This document shows, piece after piece, positions 40,132 through 63,825 of a stretch of DNA of 64,000 nucleotides (position 1 is the first letter of the stretch; the number at the start of each line of letters is the position of its first letter). The position numbers and the translations under genes are program-made. The notes beneath the pieces are model-generated. The model had not been told where the DNA came from. It was given only the letters and a program-made list of their open reading frames with translations, and searched no databases. Origin of the DNA: Nocardia sp. CC227C (GTDB taxonomy: Bacteria; Actinomycetota; Actinomycetes; Mycobacteriales; Mycobacteriaceae); contig NZ_JASITE010000007.1 in NCBI RefSeq assembly GCF_030767025.1, forward strand, positions 248,001 to 312,000. The letters are read 5' to 3'.

Positions 40132-41085
40132 TCAGTGGCCGGTGAGGATCTGCGCCGTGGGCGCGGCGGGCACCGTGCCGTGCGGTGCGGCGGGGTAGTA
40201 GTCGGGTGTGCGCGCACCGGTGACGAAATCGCCCATCCAGCCGAGGGCGAGGGTGCGCAGCGTGGCGGAGTTGACCGATTCCGAGATGCCGCACAGCATT
40301 TCGCCCATCGCATCGGAGCTGGTGCCCTCGGCGTCGGTGTGCACCCCCGACGGCAGCAGCACGCCGAGGAAGGGGCGATGCAACCGGGTCCGCACCGCCA
40401 GGGTGCCGATACCGAAGCTGTTGCAGGGTGACGGCGGGGCCGAAATCGTCAGTGTCGGCAGGTCGGTGCCGGTGATGCCGTCGAGGGCGCGGTCGATGTT
40501 GTTGCCGATGAACGAGCGCACGGGGTCGAGCAGGATCACTCCGCGCAGCGTGTTCCACGTCTCCAGGTGATGGGTGCGCAGCCGCTCGGCGACGTAGGCG
40601 ACGGCCTCGGCCCCCGCCGAATGCCCGACGAACACCAGCCGTTCGGGTATGGCGGGAACGGCCCGGCCCGCGCGGTGCGCGGCGTCGGTGAGGCTGGTCG
40701 ACAGTGCGCCGCCCGGGGCCGAGGCGGTGCCGAACAGGGCCGCCACATCGTGCAGGAAAGCGGTGTTGTCGCCGATGTTCTGCAGGGTGCAGCCCCACAG
40801 GTTCATGAACGGCATGCTCGGCGCGAAGACCAGGTACCCGGCCTCGGCGAAGGTCGCGGCGAGCGTGCCCACATGTCCGCTGGAGCGGGCGAAGCCGTGC
40901 TGCACCCACACCAGTGCCCGGGGCTGCCCGGCGGGCAGGTACCAGTCCGCGCCCTGCTCGAGAACCGTGGCCGCGCAGGGGATGTCGACGCTTCCGGGTA
41001 GGCGGTCGACGGCCTGGGCATCGGGTGCGGCCAGCAGTGCGGCGAGAACGGCGATGGTGGCCAGACCTGGGCCTCTGAGATGCAT
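40132..41085 (-). CDS. Secreted alpha/beta hydrolase (chlorophyllase-like features)
   Basis: A 317-residue hydrolase with a signal peptide (ATIAVLAALLAAPDAQA). The oxyanion turn is ALVWVQHGFARSSGHV; the nucleophile elbow is LVFVGHSAGAEAVAYVAERL. The strand after it reads GVILLDPVRSF; the DPV triplet and the overall order recall plant chlorophyllases, though the family also includes lipases. GGGAG lies 5 nt before ATG 41085. It is divergent from the CoA-ester lyase across an interval with the GTTTC-type operator, so it may release phytol or another ester outside the cell as the first step of the pathway to its right. Confidence 0.72.
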   Translation of the reverse strand: MHLRGPGLATIAVLAALLAAPDAQAVDRLPGSVDIPCAATVLEQGADWYLPAGQPRALVWVQHGFARSSGHVGTLAATFAEAGYLVFAPSMPFMNLWGCTLQNIGDNTAFLHDVAALFGTASAPGGALSTSLTDAAHRAGRAVPAIPERLVFVGHSAGAEAVAYVAERLRTHHLETWNTLRGVILLDPVRSFIGNNIDRALDGITGTDLPTLTISAPPSPCNSFGIGTLAVRTRLHRPFLGVLLPSGVHTDAEGTSSDAMGEMLCGISESVNSATLRTLALGWMGDFVTGARTPDYYPAAPHGTVPAAPTAQILTGH

Positions 41086-41227
41086 GGCTACTCCCACAAC
41101 GGGCGCCTGTTTCCTCTAGTGGAATGGCGTTTCTTCTTTGGCTGACCATTAAGGGCGATGGCGGCGCTGGTGTCAAGCGGTCGGTGTGAGCCTATTGAGG
41201 CTGGACAGCGGGGGCGGTGACCACTAT

Positions 41228-41252
41228 GTTTCGATATGGGAAACTGTGTTTC
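41228..41252. promoter_or_regulatory. Candidate IclR operator: GTTTC-N7-GAAAC plus phased half-site
   Basis: A perfect 17-bp site at 41228-41244 and a further GTTTC at 41248-41252, exactly 20 bp after the first. It lies 50 bp before the CoA-ester lyase ATG. The same motif and spacing recur at 52961, 53146 and 62899. Confidence 0.7.
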
Positions 41253-47654: not shown

Positions 47655-48350
47655 TCACTGTCCGGCGAGCAGTTCGCCGCGTACCCGCTCGGCCTGTTCC
47701 ACGCCGAGCAGTCGGGCGACCCGCCCCCATACGGGGTCGACCTCCGGGCTGAACAGGTTGGCGCGCTGTATCCGGTCGCGTACGGCGAGTTCGGCGTCCA
47801 CGGCCGGAACGCCGTTGTCCACCAGCGTGAGCCAGTGCTCGAGATACCGGTCCACGGTGGCGTCGAGAGCCTTGAACGCGGCCTCGGTGGCCCGGCACAC
47901 CACCATCCACGGCGACATCATGGCCCGCTGCCGTGGCCCGATGGCGGCGGCGGAGAGACCGTCGACGCGCCACGCCTCCTCCAGCGGCGCGGTCAGCGGC
48001 CCGAAGGCGGCGTCCAGGTAGTCCAGGTGCACCGCCGGGTCCACGCGCGGGATGAGATCCAGGTGCATGGCGTGGTAGTCGCCCGCGTACACCGCGTCCA
48101 GGGTGAAATGCGGTACGGCGGAATCGCTTCCGGTGAAGGCGAAGACCATATGGCTGTCGAGGCCGATGGGCGGCACCACCAGGTCCACCACCACCGCCTT
48201 GTCGATGGGTTCGCCGCGCAGCACCCGCAGCCGGCCCACCGGATCGGGCGATACGGGACCGGTCAGCGGCAGATCCTCGGCGACGGTGAGGCCGAGCGCG
48301 GCGCTCAGCGCCGACAGGGTGCGCTCGCTCAGCGCGGTGGGCAGGCTCAT
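47655..48350 (-). CDS. Bilin reductase / RCC reductase superfamily-like protein (second)
   Basis: A 231-residue protein. The core VPHFTLDAVYAGDYHAMHLD is followed by LIPRVDPAVHLDYLDAAFG; the H-x-DL-x-PR pattern followed by a short helix with a YLD motif is shared with red chlorophyll catabolite reductase and ferredoxin-dependent bilin reductases. MMSPWMVV then matches the SPT/SPW strand. These enzymes reduce linear tetrapyrroles with ferredoxin. ATG 48350 overlaps the Rieske stop (ATGA). Less certain than the protein at 50421-51230. Confidence 0.55.
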   Translation of the reverse strand: MSLPTALSERTLSALSAALGLTVAEDLPLTGPVSPDPVGRLRVLRGEPIDKAVVVDLVVPPIGLDSHMVFAFTGSDSAVPHFTLDAVYAGDYHAMHLDLIPRVDPAVHLDYLDAAFGPLTAPLEEAWRVDGLSAAAIGPRQRAMMSPWMVVCRATEAAFKALDATVDRYLEHWLTLVDNGVPAVDAELAVRDRIQRANLFSPEVDPVWGRVARLLGVEQAERVRGELLAGQ

Positions 48351-49468
48351 TCGGCATTACCTCCGGTGCGGGCCTTGTGCACCCAGGCACTGGCCAGTTC
48401 GGGATTGTCGTGGCGGGCGGGGGAGGCGATGACGGTCGCGGCGCGGCGCGGCGAGTCGCCGGTGATGATGTCGTCGTCGCCGACCCACCAGCCCTGTTTG
48501 CGCAACTCCAGCCGTCGCCGCCGGTAGGCCACCTGAAGGGCGTCGCTGCGGACGTGCAGTTCGTCGGCGAGGTCGAACGGCAGCAGTTCGGGCCGCTGCG
48601 ATTCCACCACCGGTCGGTCCTGGAGCAGAATCTTCTCGATGCGCTTGCGCGCATTGCCGTCGGCCCACGCGCCGGTGAAGAAATTTCGATAGCCGAGAAT
48701 CTTCACCAGCGTGCGGTCCTGGGAGAGCGGGATATTGAAGTCGTAGAGCAGCATGTCGCCGATGGGCAGTCGGATGTGCAGCTTCACGATGTTCGGCAGG
48801 TACCACGCATTGGTCACCGTGACCGATTCCGGGCGGGGCCGCCGCCGGGCCAGCAGTCCCCACAGTCCGGTGGGCAGCGGCGGACTGAGCTGGATGTCGG
48901 CCTCGGCCGACCAGTCCGTCTGGCGGATGCGGAAATCCGGGATCTCGGGCTTGTCGGGATTGCCGAAACTGGTGCCGTGCACGAACGGCGTATGCGCGGC
49001 ATCGACCACATTCTCCAGCGCCCGTTCGTAATTGGCGTCGATCTCCATGTCGAACCGCACCTCCCGGAACTCCGGGTCGTCGTGTTCGGGAATGACCGGG
49101 ATCGGCGGCCGCTCCGCTTCCGGGAGGTCGCCCAGGAACGCCCACACCATGCCGTAGCGCTCCATGGTCGGGTAGGCGTCGATGCGCGCCTTGCGGGGAA
49201 TCTTGCGCTCCTCGGCATTGGCCGGGATCTTCACGCAGACACCCTCGCTGTTGTACTGCCAGCCGTGGTACGGGCAGGCGATGCGGTCGCCGGTGACCGT
49301 GCCCATGGACAGCGCCCCGCCCCGGTGCACGCACAGATCCGACAGGCAGGTCACCGTGCCGGAGCGGGTGCGGAACAGCACGAAATCCTGTCCGAGGCAG
49401 GTCACCTTCCGGGGCTGCCGGCCGATGCGGTCGGCGAATTCCAGGGCGTACCAGAAGTTCTTCAGCAT
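48347..49468 (-). CDS. Rieske oxygenase, pheophorbide a oxygenase (PAO)-like
   Basis: A 373-residue Rieske non-heme iron oxygenase. The cluster ligands are in LCVHRGGALSMG and IACPYHGWQYNSEGVC; the segment after it, VKIPANAEERKIPRKARIDA then YPTMERYGMVWAFLG, is like plant PAO/PTC52-type oxygenases. The iron site is ENVVDAAHTPFVHG (Asp, two His). PAO opens the porphyrin ring of pheophorbide a. Unlike plant PAO it has no C-terminal CxxC and no membrane helices. It lies between the two bilin-reductase-like genes and 8 bp after the hydrolase. Confidence 0.8.
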   Translation of the reverse strand: MLKNFWYALEFADRIGRQPRKVTCLGQDFVLFRTRSGTVTCLSDLCVHRGGALSMGTVTGDRIACPYHGWQYNSEGVCVKIPANAEERKIPRKARIDAYPTMERYGMVWAFLGDLPEAERPPIPVIPEHDDPEFREVRFDMEIDANYERALENVVDAAHTPFVHGTSFGNPDKPEIPDFRIRQTDWSAEADIQLSPPLPTGLWGLLARRRPRPESVTVTNAWYLPNIVKLHIRLPIGDMLLYDFNIPLSQDRTLVKILGYRNFFTGAWADGNARKRIEKILLQDRPVVESQRPELLPFDLADELHVRSDALQVAYRRRRLELRKQGWWVGDDDIITGDSPRRAATVIASPARHDNPELASAWVHKARTGGNAE

Positions 49469-49476
49469 GGTGGTTC

Positions 49477-50424
49477 CTATCGCCGGGTCAAACGCAGTGC
49501 GGCATCGTCGAATTCGGCCAGTTCGGTCTTGGCCGCGGCATCGCCGCGCAGATGCGTCCGCAGGAATATCGTGACCAGGCGCGCGAACGACGGCATCGCG
49601 TCGGTGTCGCCGGGGCCGTCGAGGAAGGCGCGGGCGGCGGTGGGATCGGCGTCGGCGATGCCGAAGTGATTGGCTCCCGGCGCCTCCGCGAGCAGGTGAT
49701 CACCGTCGGGCAGCGCCTCGGTGAAGGTGCGCCGCACCGGATCGGGCCGGTCGTCGCCCTCCTCCCCGTAGCGGTCCGCGCTGCCCTGGATGACGCCGTC
49801 GCGTGAACCCACGCCGAGCAGCACCGGGCAGGCGGTCTGGGCGGGCAGTACGGTCCCCGGCTCCCAGCCCAGCATGGTGGCCACCAGAGTGTGTGCGCCC
49901 CAGGCGAAGACGGCCGCGATCTCGGGGAAGAAGCGCGCGGACTGGAGTGCCACGGTGCCACCCGCCGAATGCCCGCCCAGGGCGACACGCTCCAGGTCGA
50001 GCGCTCCCCGCAGCGGCGGCTGCTCGTTCAGCTCGGCCAGCGCGGTCAGGACCGCGCCGATGGTCGGGCAGGTCGGGCGGGTGCCGTAGGCGTCCGGGCG
50101 GGCGGCGTCGAGATCCACGCCCGGGGTGAGACCGCGCTGGCCGCCGAACAGTTCGGCGACCCGGTCCAGGGTGACCACCACGAATCCGGCCGCCGCGACG
50201 GCGGTGGCGAAGCGTCGGTAGGACTCCTGCCCGACATTGACCCCGGACAGGAACACCACCACCGGGTAGGGTGCGCCCGCCGGATCGGGTGGGAACACGC
50301 CGGTGAGCCGTTCGGCGTCGGAACCGCTGGCGACGGCCGGGTAGTAGACCTTCAGATGGGCGGTGTCGAACGGCGCGGTACCGTCGGTGCGCGCCGACCA
50401 CCACAGGGAGCGAATCAATGTCAT
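49477..50424 (-). CDS. Alpha/beta hydrolase, chlorophyllase/PAF-acetylhydrolase-like
   Basis: A 315-residue cytoplasmic hydrolase. YPVVVFLSGVNVGQESYRRF carries the oxyanion turn, VALGGHSAGGTVAL the nucleophile Ser, VLLGVGSRDGVI the acid and GANHFG the His. The order and the VVVFLxG...A..GFVVVTLD start resemble chlorophyllases and PAF-acetylhydrolase-like esterases. In an operon with PAO-like and RCC-reductase-like genes, removal of phytol or a methyl ester is the obvious proposal. ATG 50424 overlaps the upstream stop (ATGA). Confidence 0.8.
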   Translation of the reverse strand: MTLIRSLWWSARTDGTAPFDTAHLKVYYPAVASGSDAERLTGVFPPDPAGAPYPVVVFLSGVNVGQESYRRFATAVAAAGFVVVTLDRVAELFGGQRGLTPGVDLDAARPDAYGTRPTCPTIGAVLTALAELNEQPPLRGALDLERVALGGHSAGGTVALQSARFFPEIAAVFAWGAHTLVATMLGWEPGTVLPAQTACPVLLGVGSRDGVIQGSADRYGEEGDDRPDPVRRTFTEALPDGDHLLAEAPGANHFGIADADPTAARAFLDGPGDTDAMPSFARLVTIFLRTHLRGDAAAKTELAEFDDAALRLTRR

Positions 50425-51230
50425 GCCGTCGGCCTCGGCAGTTCGCGGTCGCCGCCCCAGAGCGCGCGCACCAGGCGCTGGGTGAGCTCGGGTCCGAAGA
50501 ACCGCTCGCCCATGACATTGGCCGGGTCGCGTTCGGCGATATTGCGGCGGACGGCCAGATCTCGCTGCGCGAGCGCGCGGCGTTCCGCGGCGGGCACCGG
50601 CTCGGCCTCGTCCACCCAGCCCAGCCACTGCTCCACCCGGGTGGTCAGCACCTGCGCCACGGTGTCGAGATTCGGTCGCGTCGGCGGAAAGGAATAGCAG
50701 TACGCGGTGGGGGAGAGGCTGCCGCGGATGAATCCGGTACGGCTGGTGAACCAGGTGAAATCCGGATGGTCGCGTTTGAAGTCCAGCCAGGGTTCGTCAT
50801 TGGGGGCGTAGAAGTCGTCGAAGTACGCGCCGTCGCCGACCAGGTCGCCACGCGGAACCGCGTCCACGTAGAACCAGCCCTCCGGCCACAGCAGCAGCGC
50901 CGACCCGAGGTGCGGCACCCGGATGTGCGGACCCAGCCATGCGGTGAGGTGCAGGTTCACGAAACCGGTGCGTGGATCGCCGATCCAGGAGTGCACCAGC
51001 CAGTCGATCTCCGGTCCGGAATAGGCGGCGAGGCTGCCGGAGGGACCCGCGGCGGGGTCGCCGTAGGTTTCCAGATCGGACGTCGAGGGATCGCGGGTGA
51101 GCGCGAAGCGTTCGGCGATACGGGACTTCAACCCGCTCAGCAGCGCCCGCCACTCCTCGAAGGTCTCGGTCACATCGGCGCGCGGGGTTTGGTCGACCAG
51201 CTGCTCGACGTGTTGCAGGGTTTCGCTCAT
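50421..51230 (-). CDS. Red chlorophyll catabolite reductase (RCCR)-like protein
   Basis: A 269-residue protein. The core from about residue 70 to 180 parallels plant RCCR: SWIGDPRTGFVNLHLTAWLG, VPHLGSALLLWPEGWFYVD, then AVPRGDLVGDGAYFDDFYAP, and finally GFIRGSLSPTAYCYSF. In Arabidopsis RCCR the same order is SWI...GASLNI, PNFVVEL, LDLPxRKDLV..PDYLKxFY and RxxxSPTA. RCCR reduces the C15=C16 bond of the opened chlorophyll macrocycle using ferredoxin. The protein lacks a transit peptide. It follows the nitrilase gene by 94 bp and leads the hydrolase-PAO part of the operon. Confidence 0.68.
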   Translation of the reverse strand: MSETLQHVEQLVDQTPRADVTETFEEWRALLSGLKSRIAERFALTRDPSTSDLETYGDPAAGPSGSLAAYSGPEIDWLVHSWIGDPRTGFVNLHLTAWLGPHIRVPHLGSALLLWPEGWFYVDAVPRGDLVGDGAYFDDFYAPNDEPWLDFKRDHPDFTWFTSRTGFIRGSLSPTAYCYSFPPTRPNLDTVAQVLTTRVEQWLGWVDEAEPVPAAERRALAQRDLAVRRNIAERDPANVMGERFFGPELTQRLVRALWGGDRELPRPTA

Positions 51231-51324: not shown

Positions 51325-52932
51325 TCAGGACACGGGTACGGAGTCGAAGGGCCGGCGGGGGCGATCGGCCACCAGATCGGTCCCCCGGGAGACCAGTCGG
51401 TTGGCGGCCTGGGCCGGTCGGATCCGGGCGCGGACACCGGTGCCACCGGCCGGTACCGCGGTGATGTCGGGGTGGCTGATCACCCCGGCGAACGGGCCCT
51501 GCCACGCGGTCCAGAGCGTGAAATCGGGGCTGAGCGCGTAGATTCCGCCGCTGAGCGCACCGTCGCGGCCGGTCCCGGCCGCCACCACGTTGAGCCGGTT
51601 CTCCGCCGCCCGTTCGGGAAGCCCGAGACTCGTTTCCCAGGCTTCGGCGGGAGTGTGGGACACCGCGACCACCTCGGCGTCCTGAATGGCCGCCAGCCGG
51701 AAGGTCTCGGGAAACAGCGCGTCGTCGCCGACCACGAGAGCGATTCGGCCCCACGGGAGTTCGACCACGGTGAGGGTGGAGCCGGGGGCGGCCGGCCATG
51801 GGTGGCGCGCGGTCGGATGCAGCTGCGGCTGGCGCGCCACCACCCCGTCGGCGTGCACCAGCAGACCGTGGTGAGCGACGCCTTCGCGGACCGTGGTGAC
51901 GGCGTACGCGGTCGTGCCGCGCAGCGCGTCGGCGAGTTCGGGAACCGGGATGGCGGCCAGTTCGGGCAGCACGATCAGGTCGGCACCGGCGGTGGCCAGG
52001 GTGCGGACGATATCGGGATCGGGTAGCGCGACCGCGGCGGTCACCGCCTCGGCGCCGGGCTCGGCCCGTGGCGCCGCGGGTGTGGCGAGCAGCGGCCGAT
52101 AGAGTTCGGGACGCCGGGCGGCGAGCACATCGGTGCCGTCGGGCCGCCGTTTGTCGTCGGCGCGAGCGATCTCGATATCGGCGACCACCACGGCCTCCCC
52201 GCGCGGCGGCGCCACGGCGACCCGGCTGCCGTCGGGGGCGACGATCTGGCTCTCCCCGGCCCCGTCCAGGCGGTCCGGCGGCACCCCGAGCCGGGCGGCG
52301 ATCTCGGGCAGCCGGTCCGCCGGCAGCAGCGGGCCGACCTTGTTCGCGGCGATCACCCACACCTTGTTCTCGGCGGCGCGCACCGGTATATGCAGCGCCG
52401 CCTCGTCGACGGCGAAGGAGTTGAGGCTGTTGAGCAGCACCTGCGCGCCGCGGACGGCGAGCGAGCGGGTGACCTCGTTGACGACGCCCTCCATGCAGGC
52501 GTACATGCCGATGCGGCCGAGCGCGGTCTCGATGATCGGCGAATCCTGGCGGCCCGCATCGAGGTAGTCGTTCTCGGCGCCCATGAGGATCTGCTTGTCG
52601 GCCCGGCCGAGCAGCTCGCCGCCGGGGCCGAAGAGCAGTGAGGCGCCCGTGGTCCGGCCGTGGGCGTGCGCGAGCGTGACGCCGATCTTGACGAATACGC
52701 CGTGGTGCGCGGCACGGGCGGCGATGGTGGAGAGAAAGGAATCTCCGAGCTCGCACGCCATTCGGTGCGCATGAGCGCGGTCGTCGTACCAGGATAGGTG
52801 GTTGCAGAACTCGGGGAGGACCACCAGTTCGGCCCCCGTCTCGGCGGCGGCGTCGATCATGCGGACGCAGGTGGCGAGATTGTTCGCGACATCGGTTCCG
52901 ACCGCGAACTGCGCGGCCGCGACTCGGGTCAT
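51325..52932 (-). CDS. Tandem nitrilase-fold (carbon-nitrogen hydrolase) protein
   Basis: A 535-residue protein with two CN-hydrolase domains. In the first (1-270) the full triad is visible: Glu41 in VVLPEFCNHLSW, Lys113 in GRADKQILMG and Cys146 in GMYACMEGV. In the second the Glu is kept (IVLPELAAIP) but the Lys and Cys positions are lost (VVGDDALFPE), so it is probably a non-catalytic partner domain. It would hydrolyse an amide or nitrile; a maleamate-like amide from pyrrole-ring fragments is a possibility. ATG 52932 is chosen because ATG 52971 overlaps the operator. It is the first gene of the operon. Confidence 0.82.
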   Translation of the reverse strand: MTRVAAAQFAVGTDVANNLATCVRMIDAAAETGAELVVLPEFCNHLSWYDDRAHAHRMACELGDSFLSTIAARAAHHGVFVKIGVTLAHAHGRTTGASLLFGPGGELLGRADKQILMGAENDYLDAGRQDSPIIETALGRIGMYACMEGVVNEVTRSLAVRGAQVLLNSLNSFAVDEAALHIPVRAAENKVWVIAANKVGPLLPADRLPEIAARLGVPPDRLDGAGESQIVAPDGSRVAVAPPRGEAVVVADIEIARADDKRRPDGTDVLAARRPELYRPLLATPAAPRAEPGAEAVTAAVALPDPDIVRTLATAGADLIVLPELAAIPVPELADALRGTTAYAVTTVREGVAHHGLLVHADGVVARQPQLHPTARHPWPAAPGSTLTVVELPWGRIALVVGDDALFPETFRLAAIQDAEVVAVSHTPAEAWETSLGLPERAAENRLNVVAAGTGRDGALSGGIYALSPDFTLWTAWQGPFAGVISHPDITAVPAGGTGVRARIRPAQAANRLVSRGTDLVADRPRRPFDSVPVS

Positions 52933-52958
52933 ACGTGTGCGCCCTTCCACTCCGGATA

Positions 52959-52985
52959 GTGTTTCGTACATCGAAACACCGTTTC
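52959..52985. promoter_or_regulatory. Candidate IclR operator of the tetrapyrrole operon
   Basis: GTTTC-GTACATC-GAAAC at 52961-52977, extended to perfect 8-bp arms GTGTTTCG/CGAAACAC (52959-52979), with a further GTTTC at 52981-52985, exactly 20 bp after the first. It is 27 bp upstream of ATG 52932. Confidence 0.75.
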
Positions 52986-53145: not shown

Positions 53146-53170
53146 GAAACTGCGTTTCCATCAGAGAAAC
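53146..53170. promoter_or_regulatory. Candidate IclR operator of the neocarzinostatin-fold operon
   Basis: GTTTC-CATCAGA-GAAAC at 53154-53170, with 7-bp arms GCGTTTC/GAAACGC, and a GAAAC half-site at 53146-53150, 20 bp from the right half. It lies 18 bp upstream of the leader peptide start at 53188. Confidence 0.72.
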
Positions 53171-53187: not shown

Positions 53188-53238
53188 ATGACGACCTGCG
53201 ATTCGCAGCGATCCTCGTTCCCCCGGTCGGAGGGTTGA
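53188..53238 (+). CDS. Short leader peptide ahead of the membrane protein
   Basis: A 16-codon frame (MTTCDSQRSSFPRSEG) with the best ribosome site in the area, AGGAGG at 53177-53182. It stops 1 nt before the ATG of the membrane protein (TGATATG). Such an arrangement usually couples translation. It has no similarity that I recognise and may simply aid initiation of the next gene. Confidence 0.45.
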   Translation: MTTCDSQRSSFPRSEG

Positions 53239-53239
53239 T

Positions 53240-54493
53240 ATGCGAACCGATCGAATCGGGCTCGCCGCCCTGGTGCTCGCCGGTGCCTGGGCGGGTCCGG
53301 TGGCGGGCGGGCAGCTGGTATTGCTGAGCAAGCCGTTCGGCGGCATGGTCGGCGTGCCCGGGACGGCGATCGGCTATATCGCGCTCACGGCGCTGGTCAC
53401 CGGCTCGGCGGCCGGAGTCGTGGCGGTGTGGCGACGGTGGTCGCCGTCCTGGGCGGCGGGGGCCGGGATCGTGGCCGGGGCGGCGTTCACAGCCGCCGGG
53501 ATGCTCTCCGGCCCGGTGCCTTTCGTCGCCGCGCTGCTGGTCGCGAGCGCGGCCTGCGGCCCGCTCATCGCCATCGGCCGAGTCCTGGTCTGGCGACGGC
53601 CGCGCGCGCTGGCCGGATGGCAGGTGGCGATGACGGTGGGCGTGGCGGTCGCGGCGGGTACGGGCGGCCGCTGGATCGAGACGCCCGGTACCGCGCTGAT
53701 CGTCGCGGGGATCGCGGTAGGGCTGCACAGTGCGCTGGCGCTGGGAGTGAAACGTCCTACGGAAGAGGTCATGCCGATCAGTGCAGGTGCTGCCGGTGCT
53801 GCCGGAGCTGCTGGTGCCGGAGCTGCTGGTGCCGACGGTGCCGGTGCCGCTGCCGGTGCCGACGGTGCCGGTGTCGGTGTCGGTGCCGACGGTGCCGGTC
53901 TCGGTGTCGGCGCTGACGCCGGTACCGGTCTGTCGCGCCACGATCTCCTGCTCGGTTACGCCGCCGCTGGATTCGTGCTCGGCGGAACCATACTGCCCGC
54001 ACTACACCTGCTGCTCTTCCGCTGGGAAGTTTTCGGTGCCGACCAGGTGGGGTTGCTGATGCTGGCCGCCGTGCCCGCGGGTATCGCGGTGGCACTGCCG
54101 GGTCCGCACGCGAGCGCCGTTCCGGTGCTGCTGATCCTCGCCGCGGGCGGTCCGGTCCTGGTGTCCACGGCTCCGGGCGCCGCCGGTGTGGCGATCGGCA
54201 TCGCGGTCACCCTGGCCGCGGGGGCGCGGGCGGCCCGCGGTCTGGACCGCACGGCCGCGATCACGCCCGGACACCCGTGGTGGGCGGTGTTCACCCTGCT
54301 CGTCGTGCTGGTCGCCGGAGTGCTCGGCCTGGGCGCGGTGTCGCTGCTCGCTTCCCGCTTCGGTACGGGTACGGCGCTCACCGCGCTCGCACTGCCCGTC
54401 CTGGTCGCCGCCGCGCTGTACGCGCGCTCGGCGCGTCCCCGACCGGCGCGAACCAGCGCCGCCCACCCGGTGCTCGAAGGAGGGCTGCCATGA
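53240..54493 (+). CDS. Polytopic membrane protein with Gly/Ala-repeat loop (MFS-like)
   Basis: A 417-residue protein with about 11 to 12 hydrophobic helices in two halves. The first begins LAALVLAGAWAGPVAGGQLV. The halves are joined by a ~50-residue loop made of GA/AGAAG/GADGAG repeats (about 180-235). The two-halves layout resembles MFS, but the motif-A signature is not clear. It leads an operon with two neocarzinostatin-fold surface proteins under an IclR-type operator; uptake or efflux of a hydrophobic ligand is a reasonable guess. AGGG precedes the ATG. Confidence 0.7.
   Translation: MRTDRIGLAALVLAGAWAGPVAGGQLVLLSKPFGGMVGVPGTAIGYIALTALVTGSAAGVVAVWRRWSPSWAAGAGIVAGAAFTAAGMLSGPVPFVAALLVASAACGPLIAIGRVLVWRRPRALAGWQVAMTVGVAVAAGTGGRWIETPGTALIVAGIAVGLHSALALGVKRPTEEVMPISAGAAGAAGAAGAGAAGADGAGAAAGADGAGVGVGADGAGLGVGADAGTGLSRHDLLLGYAAAGFVLGGTILPALHLLLFRWEVFGADQVGLLMLAAVPAGIAVALPGPHASAVPVLLILAAGGPVLVSTAPGAAGVAIGIAVTLAAGARAARGLDRTAAITPGHPWWAVFTLLVVLVAGVLGLGAVSLLASRFGTGTALTALALPVLVAAALYARSARPRPARTSAAHPVLEGGLP
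53778..53935 (+). repeat. Low-complexity coding repeat (GGTGCCGxx units)
   Basis: About 160 bp of degenerate 6- and 18-bp repeats (GGTGCTGCC, GCTGGTGCC, GACGGTGCCGGT types) that encode a Gly/Ala/Asp/Val-rich linker inside the membrane protein. The repeats keep the frame and are likely to be length-variable between strains. Confidence 0.85.
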
Positions 54494-55065
54494 TCCGCGC
54501 GGCCGCGGTCTGTTCCATCACGCTGGCGGCGCTGGCCGTCACCGCACCCGGGTACGCGGCCCCGGAGGACCCGCCCGTGCTGTCGGTGACCGCCAGTTCC
54601 GGTCTGGCAGAGGGACAGCGAATCACCGTGGACGGCAGCGGCTTCCGCCCCGGACTCGCCGCCGTCGCGGTGGGGCTGTGCACGCAGGGCTTCGCCAACG
54701 GGCTGCGGGACTGCGATCTGGAGGGCGGGGCGACCTTCGTCAATATCGCCGCCGACGGCACCATTCCGACGGTAACCCTCACCGCGCGGGCGCGTTTCGG
54801 CGATATCGACTGCACACAGCGGCAATGCGTGATCGCCGCCGCACCCCTGCCCGGCACCGAACCGCAATCGGTGATCGACGCCAATTCGGCGCAGATCCCC
54901 GTGGACTTCGCCGGTTCCCGACCGCCCACGACCACCACGACCACCACGTCGGCCACCCGCGTCGACTCCGAGACCACCGGCCCGTCGACGGCGCTCTGGT
55001 CGGTCACGGCCGCCCTGCTGTCCGCCGTCGCTCTCGCCGCGCTCGCCGAGCGTCGGCGCTTGTGA
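54490..55065 (+). CDS. Surface-anchored neocarzinostatin-fold protein (first)
   Basis: A 191-residue protein: signal peptide (AVCSITLAALAVTAPGYA), an immunoglobulin-like domain at about 30-140, a Thr-rich stalk (PPTTTTTTTSAT) and a C-terminal membrane helix followed by ERRRL. The domain matches neocarzinostatin apoproteins: LSVTASSGLAEGQRITVDG at the start and four Cys in the two-disulfide arrangement (GLC...RDC and DCTQRQC). Those proteins bind hydrophobic chromophores. ATG overlaps the upstream stop (ATGA). It may bind the tetrapyrrole or another aromatic ligand at the cell surface. Confidence 0.75.
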   Translation: MIRAAAVCSITLAALAVTAPGYAAPEDPPVLSVTASSGLAEGQRITVDGSGFRPGLAAVAVGLCTQGFANGLRDCDLEGGATFVNIAADGTIPTVTLTARARFGDIDCTQRQCVIAAAPLPGTEPQSVIDANSAQIPVDFAGSRPPTTTTTTTSATRVDSETTGPSTALWSVTAALLSAVALAALAERRRL

Positions 55066-55083
55066 CATCCCCGAGGAGGAAAT

Positions 55084-55668
55084 ATGAAGTCCACCGTCCT
55101 GCGCACCGCCGTACCGGCGGCCGCCGCCACCCTGGCGCTGCTCATCGGCAGTCCGGCGGCGTTCGCCGCGCCTACCCTGGAGGTGAGCGAGAGTTCCGGT
55201 GTCGCGCCCGGACAGGTGATCACGGTGAATCTGGCGGGGCTGCCGCCGAATCTGCCCACGGTGGCCGTGGGCCAGTGCACGCCGCAGATCACGCTGCCGA
55301 CCGACTGCCAGCTCAGCGGCTCGCTCATGGGCCGGTCCGATGAGCAGGGCGTCTGGCAGCCGACCGGCGGGCGAGAGCTGGCTCTGGTCGAGGCGGTGGG
55401 CGGCACCGACTGCACCGCCGCCCCGGGCGCCTGCACCGTCGCGGTCACCAGTCTGACCGACCCGTCGAAGATCCTGGCGGCCGTCCCGCTCACCTTCGGC
55501 GCGCCGGAGACCACGCCGCCGTCCACACCGCTGGCCGATGCCGACACGACCGAAGCGGCCGGGGAGGACAGCGATACCGGCATGATCGTCGCCATTGTGG
55601 CAGGCGGGGTGGCACTCGCGGCCGTGGCCGCCGGACTGCTGGTGATGCGTCGCCGCGGCAGCCGATGA
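55084..55668 (+). CDS. Surface-anchored neocarzinostatin-fold protein (second)
   Basis: A 194-residue paralogue of the preceding protein with the same plan: signal peptide ending SPAAFA, domain start LEVSESSGVAPGQVITVNLA, four Cys (VGQC...TDC, DCTAAPGAC), a Thr/Ala-rich stalk and the anchor IVAIVAGGVALAAVAAGLLV followed by MRRRGSR. GAGGAGG lies 5 nt before the ATG. The two domains are only moderately alike, so they may bind different ligands or form a pair. Confidence 0.75.
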   Translation: MKSTVLRTAVPAAAATLALLIGSPAAFAAPTLEVSESSGVAPGQVITVNLAGLPPNLPTVAVGQCTPQITLPTDCQLSGSLMGRSDEQGVWQPTGGRELALVEAVGGTDCTAAPGACTVAVTSLTDPSKILAAVPLTFGAPETTPPSTPLADADTTEAAGEDSDTGMIVAIVAGGVALAAVAAGLLVMRRRGSR

Positions 55669-55976
55669 GCGCCGGAGGGATGGGCACCGACGGGGCGCTC
55701 ACCCACGTGGTGCTCATGAAGTTCGCCGATCGCGCGGACAGTGAGCGCGCGGCGGAACTGCTGCGCGGCCTGGCGGGCGAGGTCCCGCACCTGAGATCGC
55801 TGTCGGTCGCGCTGGACGAACTCGGCACCGATGTCTCCTACGACCTGTGCCTGGTGACCACCCACGACTCCGGCGCGGAACTGCTTGCCTACCAGGGGCA
55901 TCCGGCACACCGCGAGGTGGCGGCCTGGCTGGTGCCGCGTCTGGCGGCGCGGGCGGTGGTGGACTATCACTCCTGA
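55665..55976 (+). CDS. Dabb-family (stress-responsive A/B barrel) protein
   Basis: A 103-residue dimeric alpha+beta barrel protein: VVLMKFADRADSERAAELLR, the central DVSYDLCLVTTHDSGAELLA and the terminal AAWLVPRLAARAVVDY. Dabb proteins include small enzymes such as olivetolic acid cyclase and heme-like binders. It overlaps the upstream gene by ATGA, so it belongs to the neocarzinostatin-fold operon. Confidence 0.78.
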   Translation: MSAGGMGTDGALTHVVLMKFADRADSERAAELLRGLAGEVPHLRSLSVALDELGTDVSYDLCLVTTHDSGAELLAYQGHPAHREVAAWLVPRLAARAVVDYHS

Positions 55977-63001: not shown

Positions 63002-63018
63002 GTTTCCCAATGGGAAAT
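63002..63018. promoter_or_regulatory. IclR autoregulatory operator candidate
   Basis: GTTTC-CCAATGG-GAAAT, one mismatch from the consensus, with a long palindromic core (TTTCCCAATGGGAAA). It lies 21 bp upstream of the IclR GTG. Confidence 0.7.
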
Positions 63019-63039: not shown

Positions 63040-63825
63040 GTGTCGGACACCGAGGCCGAGAATCAAAGTCGTTCCATCGCCGCCGTCGAGCGCGCCATGG
63101 ATGTATTGCTGCTGTTCGGCCGAACCGGGCGACCCGATCTAGGCGTCACCGAGATCGCCAACGAACTGGGCCTGACCAAAGCGGCGGTGCATCGCATCCT
63201 GACGGCGCTGCGCAATCGCGAACTCATCAGCCTGGAGCCGACCACCCGCCGCTACGCACTCGGCCACGCCGCCATCGCGCTGGGCCGTGCCTATCTCGCG
63301 CGCACCGATCTGCGCGTCATGGCGGCCCCGGAGCTGCGCCGACTGGCAACGCTCACCGGGGAGACCGCCACCCTGTCCATTCGGCGCGGTGATACCCGCA
63401 TGTACGTGGACCAGGTGGTGCCCGATCAGGAACTTCGGATGGAAGTCGCCCTCGGCGTGCCGTATCCGCTGCACGCCGGCAGCTCCTCCAAGGCCATCCT
63501 GGCCTTCCTGCGCAAGGAGGAGATCGACGAGTATCTGGACCGCCACGAGCTGACTCCCTTCACCGACGCCACCATCACCACCCCGCGCAAGCTGCGCTCC
63601 GAACTGGCCGAGGTGCGCAAGCGCGGATACGCGATCTCGTTGGGGGAGCGGCAGATCGGCGCGGCCTCGGTCGCGGCCCCGGTGCTCGACCACGACGGCG
63701 GCGTGGTGGCCGCGATCAGCGTGTGCGGACCGCTGTCGCGCTTCGAGCCGCGGTTGCAGGAGTACGTGCCGATGCTGCAGAAGGCGGCGGGCGCGGTGTC
63801 GGCACAGCTGGGCTATTCGGGCTGA
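63040..63825 (+). CDS. IclR-family regulator of the catabolic regulon
   Basis: A 261-residue IclR protein. The winged HTH is at about 8-70 (VTEIANELGLTKAAVHRILT) and the effector domain at about 85-255 (VALGVPYPLHAGSSSKAILA, SLGERQIGAASVAAPVLDHD). GTG 63040 is the likely start. A near-consensus site lies just upstream, so autoregulation is probable. Because IclR operators elsewhere are palindromes bound by dimer pairs, the 20-bp-phased GTTTC-N7-GAAAC sites at four other promoters fit this protein. The effector would be an intermediate of the pathway. Confidence 0.9.
   Translation: MSDTEAENQSRSIAAVERAMDVLLLFGRTGRPDLGVTEIANELGLTKAAVHRILTALRNRELISLEPTTRRYALGHAAIALGRAYLARTDLRVMAAPELRRLATLTGETATLSIRRGDTRMYVDQVVPDQELRMEVALGVPYPLHAGSSSKAILAFLRKEEIDEYLDRHELTPFTDATITTPRKLRSELAEVRKRGYAISLGERQIGAASVAAPVLDHDGGVVAAISVCGPLSRFEPRLQEYVPMLQKAAGAVSAQLGYSG

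Follow-up and report, generated by a model that had tools for sequence, protein, structure and literature searches.

Anchored neocarzinostatin-type proteins as probable ligand-binding parts of an uptake module beside an RCCR-type catabolic cluster in Nocardia

In Nocardia sp. CC227C, two anchored proteins of the neocarzinostatin (NCS) type, NCS1 and NCS2, are encoded together with a membrane protein beside a catabolic cluster that contains a relative of red chlorophyll catabolite reductase (RCCR), and we think it probable that the two NCS proteins bind ligand outside the cell for an uptake module belonging to this cluster. The genes lie in a stretch of 64,000 nucleotides (contig NZ_JASITE010000007.1, positions 248,001 to 312,000) from a genome of 7.58 Mb; we call this stretch the window, and positions given without a locus label are counted from its first letter. 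The evidence consists of the gene order, the anchor sequences, the predicted folds of NCS1 and of the membrane protein, the operators, and the conservation of NCS genes with transporter and RCCR genes in other genomes. The NCS fold is best known from the apoproteins of enediyne drugs. A role as surface receptors in nutrient uptake, if true, would explain part of this large, unassigned family and imply a natural ligand to seek. If that ligand is a chlorophyll product, regulator, operator, receptor, transporter and enzymes could all be tested in one operon.

Two anchored NCS-type proteins and their membrane partner

A single plus-strand run of four genes occupies positions 53240 to 55976. Overlaps of 4 bases join genes 1 and 2 and genes 3 and 4, and the gap between NCS1 and NCS2 is 18 bases. 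A preliminary description of this interval named the two NCS proteins and a transporter-like membrane protein; the Dabb gene lies within the same interval.

53240..54493, + strand: 12-helix membrane protein with a major facilitator superfamily (MFS) fold, 417 aa, with an Ala/Gly repeat in its central loop (AlphaFold model, MFS matches)
54490..55065, + strand: NCS1, 191 aa, with a signal peptide, an NCS-fold domain, a Thr-rich stalk and a GPS-CTERM membrane anchor (PF00960, model)
55084..55668, + strand: NCS2, 194 aa, with an NCS domain, a transmembrane anchor and an RRR tail (PF00960 at 21.8 bits, below the cut-off; NF040680 at 45.6 bits)
55665..55976, + strand: Dabb (A/B barrel) protein, 103 aa, the last gene in the run (PF07876 at 64.8 bits)

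Direct reading of the sequences gives both NCS proteins the same layout. Each begins like a signal peptide, has a domain containing four Cys and a stalk, and ends in a hydrophobic stretch with a basic tail (ERRRL in NCS1 and RRRGSR in NCS2). The stalk is Thr-rich in NCS1 and rich in Thr, Pro, Ala and Asp in NCS2. The anchoring in the envelope proposed earlier is supported by these sequences. NCS1 matches PF00960 with 47.3 bits in hmmscan (cut-off 25); NCS2 scored 21.8 bits in hmmscan, 23.2 bits in the genome scan when taken alone and 26.4 bits when taken together with its neighbours, so that its family assignment falls on one or the other side of the cut-off depending on the scan. In 57 aligned rows Cys64, Cys75 and Cys113 are invariant and Cys108 is at least 90% conserved, which fits an NCS beta-sandwich with two disulfides, and the four Cys of NCS2 are conserved in alignments as well. 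A profile of 15 NCS proteins, run against the PDB, matched macromomycin, kedarcidin and neocarzinostatin with values between 1e-6 and 4e-6. The domain in the AlphaFold model of NCS1 has a pLDDT mostly above 90, and the first 14 rows of the Foldseek search with this model were all NCS-family chains. With VIA-align, the model reached Z 13.7 for macromomycin (2mcm; 99 residues, 1.9 A) and Z 13.0 for neocarzinostatin, compared with Z 7.3 for the best non-family chain. The fold that the preliminary description had proposed is supported for NCS1 by family, profile and structure comparison. NCS1 had no match in the plasmid collection.

The NCS proteins of the window share the fold, the four Cys and a profile match of about 1e-6 with the chromoproteins of PF00960 (neocarzinostatin, macromomycin, C-1027, and kedarcidin). 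Unlike these, they are anchored, arranged in tandem and linked to a transporter and a catabolic cluster, and the loop and aromatic residues that contact the chromophore are not kept. We take the contacts in neocarzinostatin to be Trp39, Phe52 and the Phe76/78 loop; in the HMMER alignment of the NCS profile, Gln stands in the Trp39 column, Ser in the Phe52 column, and the loop is absent. The ligand is therefore probably not an enediyne of the neocarzinostatin type.

The membrane protein has no Pfam family over the cut-off, and no MFS family was found at E values up to 1. Its AlphaFold model (pLDDT 83.6) is a 12-helix, two-bundle MFS fold. Foldseek returned 220 matches at E up to 0.001 for this model, all 50 listed being MFS proteins, and structural alignment with an MFS protein gave Z 32.3 over 345 residues. 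The transporter-like partner can thus now be assigned an MFS fold, by model, and such a fold alone fixes neither substrate nor direction. The central loop contains a Gly/Ala-rich near-repeat (53770-53940), which is shorter in seven aligned relatives. Just upstream of the gene, at 53188-53238, a strong ribosome site is followed by a 16-codon open reading frame (ORF) that starts with MTTCD and ends in TGATATG at the start of the membrane protein. A similar short ORF is present in locus L115, and in L023 such a ribosome site reads into the membrane protein.

Operators and linkage in other genomes

Exact copies of the operator GTTTC-N7-GAAAC at 52961 and 53154 are common to the NCS operon and the RCCR-type cluster, as had been claimed before. 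Further exact copies are found at 41228 and 62899, and a copy with one mismatch at 63002. One site precedes a CitE-like gene, others flank the divergent promoter region, and the rest lie at the promoters of the flavin reductase and IclR genes. The IclR protein is our candidate for the binder of the shared operator.

52961..52977: second operator copy GTTTCGTACATCGAAAC, exact match, where the divergent nitrilase/RCCR operon begins
53154..53170: operator-like inverted repeat GTTTCCATCAGAGAAAC, exact match, directly downstream of a promoter-like block (TTGACA ... TTCAAT) belonging to the membrane protein-NCS operon
63040..63825, + strand: IclR-family regulator (PF01614 and PF09339), with operator copies just upstream

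When up to two mismatches were allowed, the window was hardly enriched in sites (13 observed versus 8.5 expected). Exact sites in 80 RCCR loci of other genomes numbered 119, versus 1, 0 and 0 in three first-order resampled controls. Several relatives have paired operator sites between the two divergent operons, and in 12 of 12 Nocardia sequences, the window included, the membrane protein is preceded by TTGAC[AG] ... TTCAAT, which the operator region immediately follows.

The RCCR-type cluster (41246-63825) recurs in Nocardia, Micromonosporaceae, Actinomadura, Nonomuraea, Streptosporangium, Streptomyces, Yinghuangia and Nocardioides, with core genes of mostly 50-90% protein identity, and this recurring catabolic cluster is a larger story than the NCS proteins alone. 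In a sample of 148 genomes of the genus, PF00960 was present in 36, with two or three matches each, and the RCCR family PF06405 in 35, all of which are among the 36; the only PF00960 holder without PF06405 is G055, an assembly of 1340 contigs. In a sample of 397 genomes of the order, PF06405 was present in 6, all with PF00960, and PF00960 in 44 of the 391 others. A scan of named genomes with the RCCR alignment found 108 relatives, the best 80 of which are the 80 RCCR loci used here; the closest is that of Nocardia otitidiscaviarum, with 93% identity. An NCS gene lies on the RCCR contig, within about 41 kb, in 60 of these 80 loci (27/27 in Nocardia and 33/53 elsewhere). For 33 of the 60 it lies within the stretch first examined, and for 27 it lies farther on the contig, 2 to 41 kb from the RCCR gene. 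The position of the NCS module varies: in Nocardia it is mostly between the nitrilase and aldehyde dehydrogenase genes and in L100-L103 beyond Amd2, while elsewhere it is past Amd2 (Micromonospora and Catellatospora) or next to IclR (Actinomadura). A module that changes its place and yet stays with the cluster is stronger evidence.

Second, diverged RCCR-like genes are found at L232:6573-7400 and G568:C25:42442-42957; the Streptomyces one is below the cut-off, and the Nocardioides one lies about 2 kb from an NCS gene. In NCS-like neighbourhoods without RCCR (L245-L256), no link to heme uptake was seen by query comparison and by reading the first residues by eye, no search for heme families having been made; gene calling predicted a single gene in L252 and none in L245 or L249. 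One of these loci, from another genus of the family and without an RCCR match, encodes proteins in which an NCS-like repeat occurs two to four times; two of these proteins have a second hydrophobic stretch (L246:9954-19230).

The coupling of NCS genes to transporter genes is tight. The membrane ORF ends just upstream of NCS1 in all 33 Nocardia loci compared (30 genomes; this leaves out L029 from G055, where the contig ends). We chose 20 neighbourhoods outside Nocardia out of 36 genomes, and in 18 of them the NCS gene adjoins or is fused to a transporter gene, with a gap of at most 28 bases in the 17 unfused cases. In the two exceptions, L238 and L242, the NCS gene is off the RCCR contig and has no transporter beside it. 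Among nine further loci outside Nocardia, LivHMG adjoins the NCS gene in seven, and two end there.

These transporters occur in four forms. Micromonosporaceae and Nocardioides have a LIV-type ATP-binding cassette (ABC) system with a LivH-LivM-LivG fusion, LivF and a binding protein, and in Micromonospora LivF is fused to an MFS-like part. The permease/ATPase in L096 matches PF02653 (176 bits) and PF00005; the candidate binding protein, of 452 aa and without a Pfam match, is named by position and look. Actinomadura, Thermomonospora, Actinocorallia and Streptomyces sp. or43 have an MFS-like part joined to a degenerate LivF, and the six fusions that were read (L226, L227, L229, L231, L237 and L244) lack the P-loop lysine, for example with GPGSRTLL versus GPNGVGKTT. 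Nocardia and Streptomyces flavidovirens have the MFS-like part alone. In Yinghuangia soli (L230:8629-10488), a fusion of 619 aa joins an MFS-like part, a helix at the former place of the signal peptide, the NCS domain and the anchor, a predicted topology that would put the NCS domain outside. The Nocardia membrane-protein profile matches the MFS-LivF-like fusions of the Thermomonosporaceae with E 1.1e-46, and these fusions match the Micromonospora MFS-LivF protein with 4e-24, covering both halves. Direct BLAST of the window membrane protein against the Micromonospora protein found nothing; the tie runs via the Thermomonosporaceae fusions. As far as can be read from the sequences, the series suggests a loss of ABC parts. 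The six fusions without the P-loop lysine may represent a pseudo-ATPase stage between an ABC importer and a stand-alone MFS-like protein. Some Nonomuraea clusters without NCS have a pair of ABC-transporter proteins nearby (L259:1149-4603, with ABC_membrane and ATPase, and L260:2364-5770), which is perhaps a replacement transporter.

The anchors also differ between genera. NCS1 matches GPS-CTERM (NF040681) with 34.7 bits (cut-off 28); among ten relatives scanned, three scored 33.6-43 bits and the fused protein 18.4 bits, the other six not being listed. All 24 Nocardia NCS1 ends have a GP[ST]-type motif, a transmembrane stretch and a basic tail. Outside Nocardia, 10 of 16 NCS ends carry an LPxTG-like motif (LPYTG, LPHTG, LPQTG, LPKTG, LPATG or LAHTG), the NCS1-like ones are GPS-type, and TIGR01167 was passed by 3 of 10 relatives scanned. 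In Nocardia an L[PA]xTG or LPxTG-like motif was found in none of 34 NCS2/3 ends, and 14 of the 34 end at the last strand of the domain when read by eye (a scripted transmembrane test gave 9 anchorless ones), so these look secreted without an anchor. No match to the sortase family PF04203 was found in the window genome, while three control genomes were positive; the anchors there should therefore be plain membrane anchors. Sortase genes were detected by tblastn in 7 of the 20 neighbourhoods of other genera, and in 6 of these, from Actinomadura, Thermomonospora and Actinocorallia, gene calling also placed the sortase next to the operon (Pfam confirmation covers the L225 copy). WxL-like and WxLIP-like surface proteins are present in 15 of these 20, with Pfam scores of 35.2 bits for WxLIP, over the cut-off, and 21 bits for WxL, below it. 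Taken together, the membrane-anchored, wall-anchored and anchorless NCS forms suggest a relay. A membrane protein of about 240 aa without a Pfam family and mostly with five hydrophobic stretches (L225:1242-1988 and relatives) lies near the sortase or IclR gene in 8 of the 20 neighbourhoods.

Proposed role and rival explanations

We propose that signal peptides would export NCS1 and NCS2 and that the C-terminal anchors would hold their domains on stalks at the membrane, beside the MFS-fold protein from the same operon. There they may capture a bulky, hydrophobic pathway substrate; a tetrapyrrole pigment, or a product of its de-esterification or opening, is the most likely candidate. The membrane protein would take this substrate over from them and import it for degradation by the cytoplasmic enzymes of the cluster. 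The IclR-type regulator would switch both divergent operons together. The ligand, the hand-over, the direction of transport and the binding by IclR are what we infer here. In other families, NCS is coupled to an ABC system of the LIV type that includes a binding protein, or is fused to an MFS-like protein, and this favours capture and import. Such a module may work like Isd (NEAT domain) and Hta, the heme-uptake relays of Gram-positive bacteria, built from NCS domains. It has in common with these the layout of wall- and membrane-anchored binding domains with a membrane importer, a sortase nearby in some families and sometimes an anchorless copy. It differs in that the Pfam scan of NCS1 and NCS2 found PF00960 alone and no NEAT or HtaA, that the transporter is MFS-like or a LIV-type ABC system, and that the ligand is a matter of inference. 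We found no tie of NCS proteins to RCCR or to uptake, and no mention of GPS-CTERM, in the open-access literature searched.

Several observations weigh against this reading. Many actinobacteria have NCS proteins without RCCR. In the 80 RCCR genomes, the NCS gene is on another contig in 7, the match is weak or linkage is not shown in 2, and there is no PF00960 match in 11 (five Nonomuraea, two Streptosporangium, Planobispora, Planomonospora, Catellatospora paridis and Actinoplanes couchii), so the NCS proteins are not essential to every such cluster. Co-occurrence inside Nocardia comes largely from one locus that is inherited or lost whole, and the linkage there is therefore not to be counted as many events. 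The Nocardia profile matched the single Micromonospora MFS-LivF protein weakly (probability 17%, E 0.0015), and a relative of the Micromonospora binding protein was not found in the window genome, in a search without a positive control. Queries with LIV, binding-protein, WxL, WxLIP, Ig-like and sortase sequences matched none of 41 Nocardia loci at 1e-5, from which the Nocardia module appears reduced. MFS proteins can export as well as import.

The enzymes of the divergent operon bear on the nature of the ligand.

51325..52971, - strand: nitrilase-superfamily protein (PF00795), which opens the divergent catabolic operon
50421..51230, - strand: RCCR relative (PF06405 at 47.9 bits, cut-off 24.9)
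49477..50424, - strand: chlorophyllase/DLH-like alpha/beta hydrolase (PF07224 at 28.3 bits, cut-off 26; PF01738 at 23.4 bits, cut-off 21)
48347..49468, - strand: Rieske oxygenase with a VanA_C domain (Pfam match)
47655..48350, - strand: weak relative of ferredoxin-dependent bilin reductases (PF05996 at 17.2 bits, below the cut-off of 31)

A tetrapyrrole ligand is favoured by the chlorophyllase relative and by the two proteins related to the bilin-reductase superfamily, of which one is a weak relative. The profile of the RCCR relative matches plant RCCR (3agb) with 2.6e-15. We take the catalytic residues of plant RCCR to be Glu154 and Asp291; the equivalent of the Asp, D235, is invariant in 11 aligned sequences, with a numbering offset that we worked out ourselves. 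A chlorophyllase-like hydrolase comes after NCS2 in three Actinomadura/Thermomonospora loci, and a hydrolase-like protein with a signal-like start at 40132-41097, whose Pfam matches are all below the cut-off, recurs in Nocardia clusters. These hydrolases may fit de-esterification outside the cell. Compared with plant chlorophyll breakdown (chlorophyllase, PaO, and RCCR), the cluster has RCCR and chlorophyllase relatives over the Pfam cut-offs and a Rieske oxygenase. Plants have, to our knowledge, no such surface module. Against chlorophyll stand the Rieske enzyme, with a VanA_C match and no PaO family in the Pfam list, and the Ala111 that the alignments place at the presumed catalytic Glu of RCCR. 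It is because of these two points that the wider proposal, in which actinobacteria acquire chlorophyll-type pigments by a relay of wall-anchored, membrane-anchored and secreted NCS proteins that supplies a complete RCCR-type degradation pathway by way of an importer, either MFS or LIV-type ABC, remains tentative and somewhat doubtful, whereas we hold the uptake module as such to be probable. The preliminary description, which proposed that both proteins could capture pigment or breakdown products at the envelope and hand them to the membrane protein, is partly supported: its fold, anchoring, partner and operator stand, and its tetrapyrrole part faces the VanA_C-type Rieske enzyme and the Ala. 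If the ligand is a chlorophyll product, these would be entry genes for bacterial chlorophyll turnover, of which we found no description in the literature searched. RCCRs have been treated as an outgroup of bilin reductases (PMC10151467), and the word neocarzinostatin is absent from that paper.

Other explanations must be considered for the same genes. The NCS proteins could be accessory subunits or chaperones of the MFS protein that bind no ligand, as the immunoglobulin (Ig)-fold protein basigin is for MCT1. Basigin is a trafficking partner and not a ligand binder, and MCT1 with basigin resembles the window pair in being, as we understand their roles, an MFS transporter with a single-pass protein that has an Ig-like sandwich, although the sandwich family and the organism are different. 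The tight gene coupling and the one fusion to an MFS-like protein agree with this, and MCT1/basigin complexes were among the MFS structures matched (the analogy is ours). However, NCS also accompanies LIV-type ABC permeases, two or three NCS copies are present in 36 of 36 NCS-bearing genomes of the genus, and some NCS proteins have no anchor or, outside Nocardia, are of a wall-anchored type. A pure subunit would require none of this; we consider such a role unlikely. The module could also serve export or self-protection. The MFS protein would then pump out a pigment or product that is toxic or photosensitising, and the NCS proteins would sequester it outside. In antibiotic producers, a reactive chromophore is bound and stabilised by soluble NCS proteins, the direction of an MFS protein is not set by its sequence, and drug exporters are among the structural matches. 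What makes this quite unlikely in our opinion is that Micromonosporaceae and Nocardioides couple NCS to a LIV-type ABC system with a binding protein, which is an importer class, and that the neighbouring cluster looks catabolic.

An identity as enediyne apoproteins or resistance proteins has the common fold and family in its favour and is exceedingly improbable. NF040680, the equivalog model for enediyne apoproteins, has a cut-off of 86 bits, which NCS1 (49.3 bits), NCS2 (45.6 bits) and ten relatives (41.8-61.1 bits) all missed. The Phe-bearing loop and the Trp of neocarzinostatin, whose roles we assume as above, are not conserved, and the proteins are anchored and lie beside catabolic genes. 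We reject the apoprotein identity on score, anchor and context, no search of the genome for enediyne synthases having been made. The NCS proteins could also be surface-structure proteins for wall hydrophobicity or adhesion, whose link to the cluster would reflect only the need for contact between the surface and an insoluble substrate, and the WxL-like, WxLIP-like and sortase genes of the other-genus loci (15 and 7 of 20) would agree with such a role. So would CwpG of Actinoplanes missouriensis, which has an NCS-like domain at residues 31-131 of 219 and a sortase sorting signal, and is a sortase-substrate candidate (PMC13251363). CwpG resembles the window proteins in being anchored with an NCS-like domain and has been studied for morphogenesis only; it was the sole anchored NCS-like protein that we found in the literature searched. 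Its deletion was without effect on mycelial growth on the medium used (PMC13251363). Nocardia, moreover, retains NCS and transporter without those surface genes nearby (0/41 loci), with no sortase match in the window genome, and we regard a structural role as very improbable.

Neighbouring genes

The divergent minus-strand run also holds genes of unknown, short-chain dehydrogenase/reductase and Amdase type past the bilin-reductase-like gene. Relatives of the nitrilase have 50-76% identity in the loci compared. Downstream of the four-gene run lie genes for two aldehyde dehydrogenases, a flavin monooxygenase-like protein, an acyl-CoA dehydrogenase-like protein, a flavin reductase and the IclR regulator. 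Relatives of the Dabb protein are present in many RCCR clusters, where their genes often adjoin that of the nitrilase.

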